Shown one piece after another: positions 8,231-19,718 of a stretch of DNA of 21,277 nt (positions are counted from its first letter, which is position 1; each line of letters opens with the position of its first letter). The notes beneath the pieces are model-generated. The model was not told where the DNA came from and searched no databases. It saw nothing but the letters and a program-made list of their open reading frames with translations. The position numbers and the translations under genes are program-made. The stretch is from Alphaproteobacteria bacterium (lineage in GTDB: Bacteria > Pseudomonadota > Alphaproteobacteria > GCA-2731375): positions 1-21,277 of the forward strand of contig JASLMY010000059.1 of NCBI GenBank assembly GCA_030746295.1. Reading direction: 5' to 3'.

Positions 8231-8236
8231 ATGATC

Positions 8237-9340
8237 TTGCAGGACGAGATCGGCTACGAGGCGGCCCCGGTGCCGGTTCGCGACGACTTGGTGGCGGCGC
8301 ATCGCCGCGCCTGGGCCCGGCTGGCCGCCCCCGGTACTTGGTGGGACGGGGCCCAACGGGTGGCGATCGCGGCGGAAGCACGCCATGCCCGCGGCTGCGA
8401 TCTTTGTCGCCGCCGGCTGGAGGCGCTGTCGCCCAATGCGGTCCAGGGCGCGCACGACAGCCTGGGCGAGCTGTCGGAGGCCATGCTGGAGGTCGTGCAT
8501 CGAGTCCGCACCGATCAGAGCCGCCTGACCCGGGCGTTCTACGAGACGGCGCTCGCCGCCGGCGTGGCCGAAGGCGAATATGTCGAGGCGGTCGGCATCA
8601 TCGCCACGGTGGTCGCCATCGACGGCTTTGCCGAGGCCTTGGGCCTGCCGCCGCACACCCTACCGGCGCCGCTGTCTGGCGCGCCGTCGCGCCACCGACC
8701 GGTCGGCGTCCGCCAGGACCCGGCCTGGGTGCCGACCCTGGCGCCAGAGGACGTCACCGAGGCGGAGGCGGGCATCTACGACGGCCTCGGCGCCGTCAAC
8801 ATCCATCGCGCCTTGAGCCTGGTGCCGGAGGAGGTCAAGGGCTTCTTCGATCTCGATTCGGCGCAGTACCTCCCCGATGCCGCCTTACGCGATTTCGCCA
8901 CCGAGTACCGCGACCTGACGCACGCCCAGATCGAGCTGCTGGCGGCTCGGGTCTCGGCTATCAATCGGTGCCACTACTGAACCACCAGCCATGCGGTGCT
9001 GCTCCGTGCGAGCGGCGAACACAGTGGCGAGGCTTACGCGTTCGAAGCCATCATTGGCAGTGCCGACGCCGAGGCCAGCCAAGTCGCCGGCGCGGTCGTG
9101 CTGTTCGATCTGGCCGATGCCTATTTCTCCGATGGCGGCCGTCTGGCCGATGCCCGAAGCGCCGTGCAGGAGACGCTGGGCCCCGGCGCCCTGGTCGATG
9201 CCGCCGGCGTCATCGCCATCTTCGATGCCGTGGTCCGCATTGCCGACGCCACCGGCATCCCATTGGAGGACGAGAAAGCCCGGATCTCGGCCGACCTCAG
9301 GTCCGAGCTCGGGCTCGACGACTTCGCCGCCCCCGACTGA
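8237..9340 (+). CDS. AhpD-like alkylhydroperoxidase-related selenoprotein (TGA at 8978-8980 read as Sec)
   Basis: Predicted thiol/selenol redox protein of the AhpD/carboxymuconolactone decarboxylase fold, 367 residues if TGA codon 248 is decoded as selenocysteine. The frame continues after the TGA without a further stop to 9338-9340 and the protein character carries on unbroken: INRCHY-U-TTSHAVLLR. This gives C245-x-x-U248-x-x-x-H252, the exact AhpD active-site pattern CxxCxxxH with Sec in place of the resolving Cys. The N-terminal half holds a second pair, C54-x-x-C57 (RGCDLCRRR), and the halves look like diverged repeats of one fold, each with a long helix following. AhpD-like selenoproteins are known from marine bacteria (established), so Sec here is not without precedent. 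A SECIS-like hairpin follows the TGA. Standard callers would report two fragments, 8231-8980 and 8996-9340. The alternative is a TGC-to-TGA nonsense change or base error. Expression would need selABC and selD, not in this window. Confidence 0.8.
8981..9017 (+). promoter_or_regulatory. Candidate bacterial SECIS element for Sec insertion
   Basis: Just 3' of the TGA, GCTGCTC (8998-9004) pairs with GAGCGGC (9010-9016) in a 7-bp stem (one G-U), extendable by T8997-G9017. The 5-base loop is CGTGC (9005-9009). The loop begins 25 bases after the TGA and its second base is G, followed by T. Bacterial SECIS models ask for an apical loop roughly 16-37 bases after the UGA with a G in the first two loop positions, so this fits. 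A competing weaker stem exists (8990-8996 with 9004-9010). Folded by eye only. Confidence 0.6.
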
Positions 9341-14047: not shown

Positions 14048-14073
14048 GCGCTGCCCTATACGGTGGCTAGCGC
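14048..14073. terminator. Candidate hairpin at the convergence of the dgo operon and the caspase genes
   Basis: GCGCTGCC (14048-14055) pairs with GGC (14065-14067) plus AGCGC (14069-14073), one T bulged, loop ctatacggt. It lies at the 3' ends of two convergent transcripts, and the right arm includes the stop of the caspase-like gene. No T-run. Confidence 0.35.
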
Positions 14074-16093
14074 TGCTTCAGGGATGAGAGCTTGCAGACT
14101 AGGCTTCCCTTGTTGTCGTCATAGACGAAGGCGATCGGGAAGCTGAGTTCGGGTTGGTGATAGGAGATGAGCTCCGAGCTGTAGGTGCCGTTGTAATCCC
14201 ATCGGCTTTCGACCAGCGGGACGACCTTGACCTTGCCGACCGTCGGCAGCTCGACCATTTCCGGATCGCCGACCGTGATCGTGTAGCTCCAGGTCCAGCT
14301 GTTGACGCCGCGGGTTTCCGTTACGTCGCCCTCCAACTCCGTGCCGGGGATCGGCTTTCGAAGCGAGCGGAAGTCGTTTCTATCGAAGGACTGCGACGTG
14401 ACCCCATTTCCGTCCGCCGAATCCTGTCGATGGAAGAGCGTCGTGCTGAGGAGGTATGCGGGCTTCTCCAACCAGACCGGCTTGCCGTCGGAGGTCCCGT
14501 CCAGACGTACCATTCCGTTGGAAATGGATGTCACCCGCCAGACGAGTGACTTGAAGTAGGGGCCGGTGCACCGATAGGCGACCTCGGTGCCGACCGCGAT
14601 CGGCTTCAGGCCGGTGCTCGGTTTCGCCGGCGCCAGCAGGCTTGCGGTGGTCTCGGACTTGCCCTTGGCGGCTTCGGCCTCTTGCGCCTGCCGCCGTGCC
14701 GCCGCGATCCGCTGCGCTTCCTCCTCCACGCGTCGGCGTTCTTCGTCCTTTGCGCGGCGCTCGGCCGCGAGGTCGGCTTGCCGGCGCGCCTCCTGCGCGG
14801 TCGTCGCTTTCGCCTCCTCCCAGGCGCTCTTCTCCTGCAACAGCGGCGCGTAGGCATAGGCATCGGCGCCGGCATGCTCGATGCGGTACCACTTGCCGTT
14901 CTTGACCTTGCCGGTGACTGGGACCTCGGCGCCCTTCTTCAGCGTCGCCACCTTCTTCGATTTCGTCGTCGGGCGCGCACGCAGGTTGACGTTCTTGACG
15001 GTGACGAAGGTCTCGTCCACCTCCTCGACGTCGACCACGGGTGCCGGAGGTGCCACCAAGGCGGTCTTGGTCTCGGTCTTGGCGGGCGGCGTCGCCTTCT
15101 TCGCCCCCGCCTTCAGCTCGTCGATCTTGAGGCGAGCGATCTTCGCGAAAATGCCGCTTGGGTACTGCTCCAAATAGACCTCGAAGGCCGCCGGGCTGGT
15201 GCTGTCCTTGGCGGCGTTCCAAAGCGCCAGCTCGATCGTTTTGGCGTCGGTGCCGCTGGCTTGCGGCTGCGGCGCGGCTGCCGCGGGCGCGGCGGCCAGC
15301 GCCGAGCCCTTCGGTACGAACAGGAACTCGCCGCCCTCGTGGCCGGCCTTGCGGATATCCGAATACTGCGGCGTCTGGTCCGCGTTCAGGACGACTTTCT
15401 GAGTGACGCCCTGGGCTAGGGCCTGGCCATCGAGGACATCCGTGCTCTCGCGCAACATGCCGAGGAAGGCATTGGCGAAGACCGAGTGCCCACCGCGCCC
15501 CGTATCCGCCACCGGCTCCAGCCCGCCCGAGACGATCGCGGTGCGCGAGCGCCGCTCCGACATGCGGCGCAGCCACGGCTCGCGCTCCGCCGCCGTCGGC
15601 AGGTTGGCCGAGGATGAGCGCACCAGCGTGCCCGAATAGCAACTGTCGGCGACGACCATCACGTGGCGCACGTTCATGGCGTTGAAGCGTCGCGTCAGGT
15701 CGTCGTTGGCGATCCAGTTGATGTCGTCTTCGGCCTCGGCATCGACCGGCTGCCAGAAGCCAGTGTTCGACTCGCGGTCGAGATAGCCGTGGCCCGCGTA
15801 GTATATGAGCAGATTGTCCTGCTCGGTCAGGTTGGCCCGATACTGGTTCATGGCCTTGAGAATCTGCTGCCGCGTGGCATTGATCAGGAGCTGGACCTCG
15901 AAGCCGTATTTGAGCCTCAGGACCTCGGCCACGGCGCTGGCGTCGCTCACTGCCGTCTGCAGCCGGGTCAGGTGCTGATCTCGTTGTTGCCGATGACGAG
16001 GGCATGGTAGCGGCCGAAATCGATACCGGCCGCCTGTGCCGGCCCGGCAAGCCAGCACGCCAGCCACAGGATTGTGCCAATCGCTAGGCGCAT
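14067..16093 (-). pseudogene. Secreted caspase-like (C14/orthocaspase) protein with SH3 domain, copy 1, one-base frameshift
   Basis: Restoring one base gives about 675 residues: signal peptide (MRLAIGTILWLACWLAGPAQA), caspase p20-like domain, linker with a short helical repeat, SH3b-type domain (FVTVKNVNLRARPTTKSKK... WYRIEHAG), Arg/Glu/Ala coiled coil, and a beta-rich C-terminal domain (about 14067-14640). The catalytic dyad is intact: His in YYAGHGYLD and Cys in VADSCYSGT. Translation from ATG 16093 reads VIGNNEIST then stops. Compared with copy 2 (VIGNNEYEHLPRLQTA), one base is missing near 15979-15980: adding T after GAG gives NNEYQHLTRLQTA and restores the frame. Everything downstream is well conserved, so the lesion is recent or a base-call error. 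An internal start at 16067 would lack the signal peptide. If real, the product is lost or unexported. Confidence 0.8.
14685..16093 (-). repeat. Direct repeat unit, caspase gene copy 1 (shared 5' part)
   Basis: Shared part of the tandem duplication: signal peptide through coiled coil, 1409 bases. It aligns with 16618-18015, differing by two two-codon insertions (after the APAA linker and in the Lys/Pro linker) and one missing base. The alignment breaks at ARRQA in the coiled coil. Confidence 0.8.
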
Positions 16094-16275: not shown

Positions 16276-16527
16276 TCACTGATACGACTTGATTGCGCAC
16301 AAGTAAGCCATCTCTGTCAATTCTTTCTTGTCTTTTCTTGAAAGTCTTCCAGACTTCGCTTCTAGGGATCTTTTTGTGTACTCAACTACATTATATCTCC
16401 TTCTAACCTCTTCTTTCATGCAAAGGCAGAATTTCCCTATTTGCTCTCTAGATACGTTCTTGTTTTTCCTATTCTTTCTTGAGTTTGCCACACAGTTGTC
16501 ATATTCTTTTGATAACAACTTTTCAGG
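16276..16527 (-). other. AT-rich foreign-looking segment encoding the copy 2 C-terminal tail
   Basis: Hand count gives 67 G/C in 180 bases (37%) over 16321-16500, against 45 of 60 (75%) over 16681-16740 in the same gene. The switch is abrupt near 16527, close to where similarity with copy 1 ends. Codons for Lys, Asn, Arg and Ser are AT-ending, for instance AGA and AAA, unlike the surroundings. It encodes residues 497-579, in frame with the host gene. Confidence 0.8.
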
Positions 16528-18015
16528 TATCTGGGCCCCACGAGGCGCGGGTTTGGGGGGCGTGGCGGCCGCCACGCGTTGGCGTTCCACTTCTTCCTTC
16601 CGCTTCACCTCTTCTTCGGCTTGACGGCGTGCCTCGGCCATGCGCCGGGCTTCCGCTTCGACGCGTCGGCGCTCTTCTTCCTTCGCCCGGCGCTCGGCCG
16701 CGAGCTCGGTTTGCCGGCGGGCCTCAGTCGCCGACTTCGTCTCGGCTTCCTCCCAGGCGCTCTTGTCCTGCAGCAGCGGCGCGTAGGCATATGCCTCGGC
16801 GCCGGCGTGCTCGACGCGATACCACTTGCCGCCAGCGACCTTGCCGGTGACCGTGACCTCGGTGCCCTTCTTCAGCCGCCCCACCTTCTGGGACTTCGTG
16901 GTCGGACGCGCCCGAAGGTTGGCGTTCTTGACGGTGACGAAGCTCTCGTCCACCTCCTCGATCCCGACCGTTGGCGCCTTCGGCGTCGCCATGGCGGTCT
17001 TGGGCGCGGCGGGCGCTGTCGGTTTCTCGGCCCCACCCTTCAACTCCTCGATCTTGAGGCGGGCCACGGTCGCGAAGATGCCGTTGGGGAACTGCTTCAG
17101 ATAGGCCTCGTACGCCGCCGGTTTGGCACTGTCGTTGGCGGCGTTCCAAAGCGCCAGCTCGACGGCCTGAGAGTCCGAGCCACCTGCTTTCGGCCTCGGC
17201 GCCGCCGGCGCGGCGGCCAGCGCGGACCCCTTTGGCACGAACAGGAACTCGCCGCCTTCGTGGCCGGCCTTGCGGATATTGGAGTACTGGGGTGTCTGGT
17301 CGGCGTTCAGCACCACCTTCTGGGTCACGCCCTGGGCCAGGGCCTGGCCATCGAGGATGTCCGCGCTCTCGCGCAGAATGCCGAGGAAGGCGTTGGCGAA
17401 GACCGAGTGCCCGCCCTTGCCCGTGTCCGCCACCGGCTCCAGCCCGCCCGAGACGATCGCCGTACGCGAGCGCCGTTCCGACATCCGCCTGAGCCACGGC
17501 TCGCGCTCGGCACCCGTCGGCAACTGCCCGGTGGACGAGCGCACCAGGGTGCCCGAATAGCAGCTGTCGGCCACCACCATCACGTGGCGCACGCTCATGG
17601 CGTTGAAGCGCCGGGTCAGGTCGTCGTTGGCGATCCAGTTGAGGTCGTCGTCCGCCTCGGCATCGACCGGCTGCCAGAAGCCGGTGTTCGACCCGTGGTC
17701 GAGGTAGCCGTGCCCGGCATAGTAGACCAGCAGGTTGTCCTGCTCGGTCAAGTCGGCCCGATACCGGTTCATGGCGCGCAGGATCTGTTGCCGTGTGGCG
17801 TTGATCAGGAGTTGGACGTCGAAGCCGTACTTGAGCCTGAGGACCTCCGCCACGGCCCCGGCATCGCTGACGGCGGTCTGGAGCCGGGGCAGGTGTTCGT
17901 ACTCGTTGTTGCCGATGACGAGGGCGTGGTAGCGGCCGAAGTCGATCCCGGCCGCCCGTGCGGGTCCAGCCGCAAACACGGCCGCCCACACCAGCATAAC
18001 GATCAGTAGGCGCAT
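16276..18015 (-). CDS. Secreted caspase-like (C14/orthocaspase) protein with SH3 domain, copy 2
   Basis: Intact 579-residue paralogue of the downstream gene. Order: signal peptide (1-22, MRLLIVMLVWAAVFAAGPARA), caspase p20-like domain (about 26-262) with dyad H102 in YYAGHGYLD and C152 in VADSCYSGT, a helical segment ALWNAANDSAKPAAYEAYLKQFP near 289-310 recalling short Sel1/TPR-type pieces, SH3b domain (about 358-415), Arg/Glu coiled coil (420-482), Pro-rich spacer, and a Cys-containing basic tail (497-579) with C508, C530, C532 and C573. Members cleave after Arg/Lys or act as scaffolds; the target is unknown. Export to the periplasm is expected. ATG 18015 is preceded by GAGAGGAA. The longer open frame reaching 19935 is antisense noise through the ligase gene. 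The tail is encoded by AT-rich DNA unlike the rest, suggesting a joined-on segment. Confidence 0.88.
   Translation of the reverse strand: MRLLIVMLVWAAVFAAGPARAAGIDFGRYHALVIGNNEYEHLPRLQTAVSDAGAVAEVLRLKYGFDVQLLINATRQQILRAMNRYRADLTEQDNLLVYYAGHGYLDHGSNTGFWQPVDAEADDDLNWIANDDLTRRFNAMSVRHVMVVADSCYSGTLVRSSTGQLPTGAEREPWLRRMSERRSRTAIVSGGLEPVADTGKGGHSVFANAFLGILRESADILDGQALAQGVTQKVVLNADQTPQYSNIRKAGHEGGEFLFVPKGSALAAAPAAPRPKAGGSDSQAVELALWNAANDSAKPAAYEAYLKQFPNGIFATVARLKIEELKGGAEKPTAPAAPKTAMATPKAPTVGIEEVDESFVTVKNANLRARPTTKSQKVGRLKKGTEVTVTGKVAGGKWYRVEHAGAEAYAYAPLLQDKSAWEEAETKSATEARRQTELAAERRAKEEERRRVEAEARRMAEARRQAEEEVKRKEEVERQRVAAATPPKPAPRGAQIPEKLLSKEYDNCVANSRKNRKNKNVSREQIGKFCLCMKEEVRRRYNVVEYTKRSLEAKSGRLSRKDKKELTEMAYLCAIKSYQ
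16618..18015 (-). repeat. Direct repeat unit, caspase gene copy 2 (shared 5' part)
   Basis: Partner of 14685-16093, 1398 bases. The protein match is nearly continuous through the caspase domain (for example the DEQ-rich TRQQIL, AGHGYLD and GGLEPVADTG blocks are the same) and looser in the linkers. Beyond this unit the two genes have unrelated 3' ends. Confidence 0.8.
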
Positions 18016-18098: not shown

Positions 18099-19718
18099 CT
18101 ACCGGTGCACCTTGATGCCTGCCTTCTCGCGGTCCCGGATCTGGTCGAGGCGAGCTTCCGCCGCTTCCTTGAGCTTGTATTTCTGCACCTTCTCGCTCAT
18201 CGTCCGGGGTAGGTCGTCCAGGAACTCCACGTAGCGGGGTACCATGTAGTAGGCCATGTTGGCCTGGCAGTGGGCGATCAGCTCGGCCTCGGTCAGTTCC
18301 GCACCGGATCTCAGCATCACCGAGACCATGACCTCGTCCTCGCTCATCTCGGACGGCACCGGGAAGACGGCGGCGTCCTCCACGGCGTCGTGCAGCATGG
18401 CGATCTGCTCGACTTCGTAGGAAGAGATGTTCTCGCCCCGGCGGCGGATCGCGTCCTTCTTGCGGTCGGCGAAATAGAGGTAGCCGTCCTTGTCCAGCCA
18501 GCCGCGGTCGCCGGTGTGGAACCAGAGGTTGCGGAAGGCGGCGAGCGTCGCCTCGGGCATGTTGTAGTAGCCCTGCGCTGCAAACCAGGGATCGCGGTGG
18601 CGCAGCACGATCTCGCCGACCTCGCCGGTGGCCACGTCGAAATCCTCGTCGTCGACGATCCGGACCTGGGCCTCGGGCCGAACGGGGCCGGCCTAGGCCC
18701 ATTTCTCCGCCGGTGCGTCCGGGCCCTTGAGGGTCACCAAGCCGAAGTCGGTCAGTCCGTAGAGCGAGGTCAGGGTCAGGCCGAAGCGCTTCTCGAAGTC
18801 GTGGTAGAACTCCTTCGGCGTCGGGATCGCCAGGCACAGGCGGACCGGGTTGTCGGCGTCGTCGGGGCGCTCGGGCTGAGCCCAGATGATGTTGGACATG
18901 GCGCCCAGCGAATTGAACTGCGTCGCACCATAGTGGCGGACCTCGTCCCAGAAGCTCGAGGCCGAGAACCAGCGCGAGAAGGCCAGCGTGGCCTCGGCGA
19001 TGATCGCCGGCAGACAGCTCACCAGCCAGGCGTTGCCGTGGAAGAGTGGCAGCACCGCGAAGATGATGTCGTCGGTCGTGTAGCCATAGGCCTCGACGGC
19101 GTCGATGCCGGCGCTCCACATATGGGCGTGGGTTGCCATGTTGCCCTTGGAAGGGCCGGTGGTGCCGGAGGTGTAGGAGAGGAAGGCGAGGTCGGAGTGC
19201 AGCACCTCGACTTGCGGTGCGGTATCGTCGCCATCTTCCAACCTCCAATAGTCGGTCACGGGCACCGCGAACCCGGCCGCCAGTTGCGGCGGCATCGGGC
19301 CCGCCTCGTCGACGATCACGGCCTGGGTGATCTTCGGCGTCCGGTCTTGGACCTCGAAAAAGCGCTCGGCGAGGCCGGTCTCGACGATGAACATGACCGA
19401 ATCCGACTGCTCGATGTAGTAGAGCAGCAATTCGCCTTTTGCCGCGGTGTTGATCGGCACGACGCAGGCACCGAGCTTGCAGAGGGCGAAGAAGACCCAG
19501 AGCTGTTCCGGGCAGTTGTTCATGAAGACGGCGACGTGATCGCCGCGGCCAACGCCGAGGCCGGCGAGGCCATTGGCAATCCGGTTCGAGATCAGATGGG
19601 CGTCGAGGTAGGAAAAGCGTCGCTCCTCGAAGTGCAGAAAGGTCTTGTCGTCGAGGCGCCGCGCCTTGTCGGCGAAGATCCGGCCGAAGACCCGCTCGCG
19701 CATCGGATAGGTGATCAT
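18099..19718 (-). pseudogene. ATP-dependent acyl-CoA ligase (ANL superfamily, CaiC-like) interrupted by an amber codon
   Basis: 540-codon frame with one internal TAG at 18695-18693. The N-terminal part (341 residues from ATG 19718) carries the P-loop-like LSYTSGTTGPSKG, FAVLPLFHGNAW and SLYGLTDFG. The part after TAG carries GEVGEIVLRH, WFHTGDRGWLDKDGY, DRKKDAIRRRGENISSYEVE and, near the end, MSEKVQKYKL with the catalytic lysine region. Together they form a complete adenylate-forming ligase resembling crotonobetaine/carnitine-CoA or long-chain acyl-CoA ligases. The stop falls in EKWA-stop-AGPVRPEAQVRIVDD, where relatives usually have Ser or Thr; a single C-to-A change in TCG would explain it. 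A restart at GTG 18635 would yield only the small C-terminal lobe. So the gene is broken, or the base is wrong. The following caspase gene starts 83 bases downstream on the same strand. Confidence 0.8.

Follow-up and report, generated by a model that had tools for sequence, protein, structure and literature searches.

We found that the in-frame TGA at positions 8978-8980 of the stretch of DNA under analysis (21,277 nucleotides, hereafter the window) very probably encodes selenocysteine (Sec), and that gene finders split one redox enzyme in two at this codon. The whole reading, held here with high confidence, is that the gene encodes a tandem AhpD-fold protein of about 367 residues, and that UGA 8978-8980 is translated as Sec by means of SelB, tRNA-Sec and a hairpin at 8998-9016. 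The features discussed are listed below, and all residue numbers (C56, C247, U250 and the rest) were counted from the ATG at 8231.

8231, + strand: alternative ATG start of the same selenoprotein gene
8237..9340, + strand: selenoprotein gene read through the TGA, NF041238 family, tandem AhpD-like, about 367 residues
8396..8407, + strand: predicted N-terminal half, CxxC motif C56-D-L-C59, both Cys being conserved in 32 of the 34 family members aligned
8933..8992, + strand: AhpD-type relay of the C-terminal half, E235, C247, Y249, U250 and H254, placed by the family alignment
8978-8980, + strand: UGA very probably read as Sec, residue 250 from ATG 8231 and 248 from TTG 8237
8998..9016, + strand: bacterial SECIS-like hairpin of 7 bp, loop CGUGC at 9005-9009, 24 nt past the UGA, minimum free energy (MFE) -10.2 kcal/mol
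9338..9340, + strand: terminal stop, as read in the window sequence, a TGA as well

Translation of the + strand gave a single frame from 8237 to 9340, with one internal stop followed by the gene's own terminal stop, and the sequence around the internal stop was ...SAINRCHY-TGA-TTSHAVLLRASG... The ORF list divides the gene into 8231-8980 (249 aa) and 8996-9340 (114 aa), both in the same frame. The earlier note had described two fragments in one frame separated only by a TGA, and this was confirmed by both the translation and the ORF list. Judged from the sequence, TTG 8237 seems a likelier start than ATG 8231, because an AGGAGG abuts the ATG and lies 6 nt from the TTG, and because P0001, a protein 94% identical, begins with MQDEIG. 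Since the terminal stop of the gene is itself TGA, this codon still terminates genes here. A genome-wide reassignment of TGA to a standard amino acid, e.g., Trp, would draw on nothing more than the in-frame TGA, and we regard it as extremely improbable: of 18 ORFs tallied in the window, 10 have TGA as their stop, this gene included, both read-through relatives found carry Cys and not Trp at the column, and the genomes that carry the gene have SelB and tRNA-Sec. This explanation was rejected, as it is contradicted by the use of TGA as a stop in the window.

The main evidence for Sec came from comparison with related loci. A scan of genome contigs retrieved 28 loci, and TGA was found at the same codon in 11 of the 11 that were full-length or nearly full-length orthologs (L001-L011, from Alphaproteobacteria and from metagenome-assembled genomes (MAGs) labelled Immundisolibacterales, Gemmatimonadetes, delta proteobacterium and Actinomycetota). 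Loci L012-L028 matched by the AhpD core or the C-terminal half only, at 25-61%, and were excluded from the orthologs. The scan was not biased to TGA, because one of its two patterns demanded a Cys codon at this position. In a draw of 289 genomes from the class to which G001 belongs (a Minwuiaceae MAG; Alphaproteobacteria), the family was present in 19 genomes at E 1e-30. These genomes have between 1 and 4 copies each and 34 in total, and every copy contained a single internal TGA. The TGA sat at the motif in all 30 copies with fetched DNA, the remaining four having no locus and being recorded as containing one TGA. Cys forms accounted for 0 of these 34 copies at the same threshold, a rarity that makes this family well suited to the question of what maintains Sec. 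Among 246 genomes from the phylum to which G011, an Actinomycetota MAG, belongs, one TGA was observed in nine of nine matches at E 1e-15; five of the matches were over the cut-off, and the place of the TGA was verified in G011 alone. The earlier note's claim of a probable selenoprotein with TGA in a CxxC redox site is therefore supported, by the TGA in 11 of 11 orthologs and the single TGA in 34 of 34 copies. Its supporting argument, that a random nonsense mutation would rarely hit this one of about 367 codons, led to a conclusion that stands, and by itself is weaker than the comparative evidence.

The protein databases gave a consistent picture. Among the 120 proteins listed of 790 homologues, 118 ended at the C-x-x right before the TGA, and P0007 and P0046, among the matches listed, ran through with Cys at the Sec column of the alignment (motif CFYCATSH in P0046). 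The Sec/Cys alternation that the earlier note proposed to look for was thus observed, with TGA in the relatives and Cys in these two proteins; a conserved in-frame UGA aligned with the redox Cys of homologues is what characterises a selenoprotein gene. As 118 of the 120 listed matches are the piece that precedes the Sec codon, those entries are without the catalytic half, and protein databases give a poor view of the family.

These data also bear on a reading of the TGA as a nonsense mutation or sequencing error in a once Cys-containing gene. Broken frames do occur, as an AMP-dependent ligase gene in the same window has an in-frame TAG, and the existence of P0007 and P0046 demonstrates that Cys forms are known. 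However, neither a pseudogene nor an artefact would be expected to show TGA at the same codon in 11 of 11 ortholog loci and once in each of the 34 copies from the 289 genomes, nor 118 of 120 listed proteins ending there. Moreover, past the hairpin, third positions were the most variable in six of seven comparisons (slightly so with L010, and not clear-cut with L004), and the hairpin codons were nearly fixed at synonymous positions. We therefore consider this reading very unlikely for the window's gene, and as a general explanation it was refuted by the conservation of the TGA. That the TGA is a real stop, the product being a 249-aa N-terminal protein and 8996-9340 being separate or untranslated, agrees with the mechanical ORFs on either side of the codon and with the short protein listed in databases, but it is a highly improbable account: the relay and the compact second AhpD half require both sides, the Cys homologues P0007 and P0046 continue through, 19 of 19 carriers in the 289-genome draw use Sec, and a hairpin stands at SECIS spacing. 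Partial termination at UGA is common in selenoproteins, and some short product may therefore also be made.

Three further observations were made in this survey. At L004:4001-5904 (a Rhodospirillaceae MAG), the selenoprotein gene is present as two tandem copies, each with a TGA of its own. The divergent L058 and L011 are without the N-terminal CxxC and keep the TGA and a hairpin-like stretch. Loci L074-L077, from the phylum of G011, are partial NF041238 matches below the cut-off with a TGA inside, and possibly represent a related AhpD-type selenoprotein.

The candidate for the signal that directs Sec insertion is the hairpin at 8998-9016. Among the rules for bacterial SECIS elements stated in PMC13188914 are a loop of 3-9 nt, a stem of 4-16 bp, a spacing of 16-37 nt, a G in the first two loop positions and an MFE of -7.5 or lower, and the hairpin fits all of them, with a loop of 5 nt, a stem of 7 bp, a spacing of 24 nt and -10.2 kcal/mol. 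In an analysis of 40 sequences, with one of the two L004 copies used, codons +8 to +11 past the TGA, those that build the window's hairpin, were nearly fixed as CTC CGT GCG AGC, with z between -8.6 and -11.6. The Leu codon at +8 was CTC in 39 of 39 Leu (expected fraction from the pooled usage of these genes, 0.24), the Arg codon at +9 was CGT in 0.95 of 39 (expected 0.14), the Ala codon at +10 was GCG in 25 of 25 (expected 0.39), and the Ser codon at +11 was AGC in 0.93 of 40 (expected 0.37). Codons +13 to +17 showed unremarkable variation in the 40 sequences. Outside the hairpin core, codons such as -24, +2, +4, +7, +12 and +18 also varied less than expected, with z of -5.2 to -8.2; over the stretch analysed, -24 to +18, no rival run of neighbouring codons was as strongly fixed as +8 to +11.

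Five hairpins were folded, the window's included. Those of L062 and L054 kept the pairing with other bases in the lower stem (-10.8 and -10.7 kcal/mol, respectively), and the 19-nt hairpin of L001, at -5.4 kcal/mol, misses the -7.5 rule. Covariation was modest: two-sided change was seen in three of the seven pairs, a value that 20 of 500 shuffles equalled; sliding the hairpin partner by +1 or +2 gave more, with four two-sided pairs. The covariation score was matched by 32 of 500 shuffles, and the covariation term of RNAalifold was -0.04. The SECIS call is consequently based on the published rules together with the near-fixation of the codons, and covariation does not enter into it; the support for the hairpin is mostly a nearly unchanging sequence. 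The alignment of 41 sequences (A2) omits L040, which is the same gene as L001, and L057; the latter, missed by the motif search, has the TGA, and CGGGC where the others mostly have CGTGC. A stretch of 50 nt folded no better than its shuffles (z -0.21). A search for GCTCCGTGCGAGC that tolerated up to one mismatch gave a single occurrence in the window, at 9001-9013, and a window-wide Rfam search at gathering scores returned nothing, hence no Rfam match for the hairpin.

The machinery for Sec insertion was then sought in the carrier genomes. In the 11 genomes of L001-L011, tRNA-Sec was over the cut-off in 11 of 11, the best matches scoring 67-80 bits (gathering score 47), and SelB was over the cut-off in 11 of 11. 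At the loose tRNA-Sec threshold, 14 of 14 control genomes also matched, five of them over the cut-off, so that the stricter test on the 289 genomes is the better one; for SelB, two of the 14 controls were over the cut-off. With the stricter thresholds, tRNA-Sec and SelB were each detected in 41 of the 289, in the identical 41 genomes, and among the 14 controls only E. coli and Methanocaldococcus were positive. Both components were present in 19 of 19 carriers of the gene versus 22 of 270 non-carriers (Fisher p 1e-18, a value overstated because the genomes are related by common descent), and within this draw the selenoprotein gene occurred only in Sec-using genomes. By YchF, the genomes of the draw nearest to the window's organism are G078 (71%) and G198 (68%), both with the gene and the machinery; the third and fourth nearest, G208 and G093, have neither. 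In six of the 34 copies (L079, L080, L081, L082, L083 and L084), the selenoprotein gene lies 135-2337 bp from a tRNA-Sec gene. Three of these six loci were annotated, and selA and selB adjoin the gene at L079 and L082, and selD, selA and selB at L080. For the window's own organism, we infer Sec insertion in which SelB and tRNA-Sec would decode UGA 8978-8980, directed by the hairpin at 8998-9016.

The read-through protein matched NCBIfam NF041238 with 472.3 bits (cut-off 175) over model positions 1-356 of 357. This equivalog is named AhpD_rel_CFYUT, 'alkylhydroperoxidase-related (seleno)protein', and its motif, C-x-x-U/C followed by T, is found here as CHY-TGA-T, with TGA in the orthologs and Cys in P0007 and P0046. 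The motif reads CHYUT here versus CFYUT in the model, and relatives show CFY, CVY, CLY, CYY and CHY. Pfam recognised CMD (PF02627) in residues 224-274 only. A table in the review PMC13188914 gives NF041238 as 'AhpD-related protein (hypothetical protein 1, Sargasso Sea metagenome)' with CxxU, and PMC1088965, from 2005, as far as its accessible part goes, bases hypothetical protein 1 on four sequences that contain a CXXU motif, shows a predicted SECIS and gives no functional evidence. The CxxU is common to this protein and ours, and we found no feature that distinguishes the two. Given this listing, the kind of selenoprotein is already known, and the suggestion in the earlier note of a less-described variant does not hold: the gene is no orphan, as it belongs to a catalogued family. 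In the Sargasso Sea and GOS data, the AhpD-like (COG2128) and CMD-domain selenoproteins share the CxxU in an AhpD/CMD core (PMC2398784, PMC1088965) and are listed separately from hypothetical protein 1 and NF041238 (PMC1088965, PMC13188914); the name 'hypothetical protein 1' does not appear in PMC2398784. The gene falls below the cut-off for TIGR01926 peroxidase-related enzymes (40 vs. 81.8 bits). Compared with AhpD-like enzymes (TIGR01926; structures 6k40, 2prr and 3c1l; M. tuberculosis AhpD), it has an extra AhpD-like half fused in front, and Sec in the place of their second Cys. A scan of viral contigs with the family alignment gave 0 of 38 candidate stretches encoding a relative. With the C-terminal part alone (residues 245-369) as the query, no protein was returned at E 0.001 among 2348 candidates; this is not read as absence, because P0007 was missed too and most listed entries stop earlier.

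The protein is predicted to be a tandem of two AhpD-fold halves. The structure model, built with Cys in place of Sec, had a pLDDT of 94.6 and covered both sides of the TGA. The earlier note's 'two-halved form with an extra N-terminal CxxC' agrees with this, since both halves are predicted to be AhpD-like and C56/C59 are kept in 32 of 34 relatives. In the alignment used (A3, 34 of the 42 available sequences), E235, C247, the Sec column, T251 and H254 were conserved in 34 of 34 rows, and Y249 in 33. Their spacing is the same as that of the PA0269 relay, Glu36/Cys48/Tyr50/Cys51/His55 (PMC3141380), and the pattern Glu-x11-Cys-x-Tyr/His-Cys-x3-His falls on a motif of two predicted helices, 231-244 and 248-265. 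When the profiles of the halves were compared locally, C56/C59 aligned to C247/U250 (probability 71.7%, E 3.5e-5); the global comparison was weak (probability 5.7%, E 0.0019). In the N-terminal half, at the offsets that correspond to the relay residues, the 34 rows contained no Glu (column 44 has V, L, I, T or R) and His once (column 63).

The Sec of the C-terminal half would occupy the position that Cys133 has in M. tuberculosis AhpD. With a complete AhpD relay in which Sec replaces this Cys, the likeliest function of the site is to reduce a hydroperoxide or else a disulfide partner via a Se-S bond with C247; both the substrate and the activity, in which Cys247 and Sec250 would form a selenenylsulfide as peroxide or disulfide is reduced, are deduced from this arrangement. 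The N-terminal half has kept its CxxC and has neither the Glu nor the His, and C56/C59 may serve a structural or a dithiol relay role.

Once read through, the gene reveals a protein whose predicted two-part shape resembles human sestrin (Sestrin2). Sestrin, which senses stress and nutrients in animals, has been proposed to stem from the duplication of an AhpD-like unit (PMC4674687), and has two AhpD-fold domains in one chain, as the predicted fold does here. The position of the active site differs: Sestrin2 has its active Cys125 in the N-terminal domain, with Sesn-C devoid of catalytic residues (PMC4674687), whereas the complete relay is C-terminal here. Foldseek returned nothing at E 0.001, the best hit being 6k40 (5.7e-3) and Sestrin2 ranking 16th (E 0.65). 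The ranking behind the resemblance to Sestrin2 was instead that of VIA-align, where helical proteins can get middling Z scores by arrangement alone. No sestrin chain turned up when PDB sequences were searched by profile up to E 10, and the N-terminal half alone gave no sestrin among the rows returned. The tandem could have arisen independently of sestrins. A bolder and rather doubtful proposal is that NF041238 is a bacterial sestrin-like pseudo-dimer in which the N-terminal CxxC passes electrons to the Cys-x-x-Sec selenenylsulfide, with Sec nearly obligatory and the gene sometimes accompanied by selA-selB-selC. If so, one NF041238 polypeptide would do the work of the separate thiol adaptor and peroxidase proteins found elsewhere. 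The value of the finding is limited to the correction of the annotation and to the sestrin-like tandem architecture.

The gene's neighbours in the window are a divergent acyl-CoA dehydrogenase gene and ychF. The window's acyl-CoA dehydrogenase, YchF, citryl-CoA lyase-like, LLM, ligase and caspase-like genes were absent at E 1e-10 from the flanks of 17 related loci (L001-L011 and L079-L084, at most a few kb per side), and the neighbours are therefore uninformative on function. On the - strand, 14067-16067 and about 16276-18000 are adjacent and look by eye like tandem caspase-like paralogues; the product of 14067-16067 scored 56 bits against the caspase domain model NF047832, below its cut-off of 140. 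At 18099-19718, also on the - strand, the AMP-dependent acyl-CoA ligase-like gene has its in-frame TAG at 18693-18695, with both pieces in one frame, and, unlike the TGA described above, this appears to be an ordinary disrupted gene or an error in the sequence.
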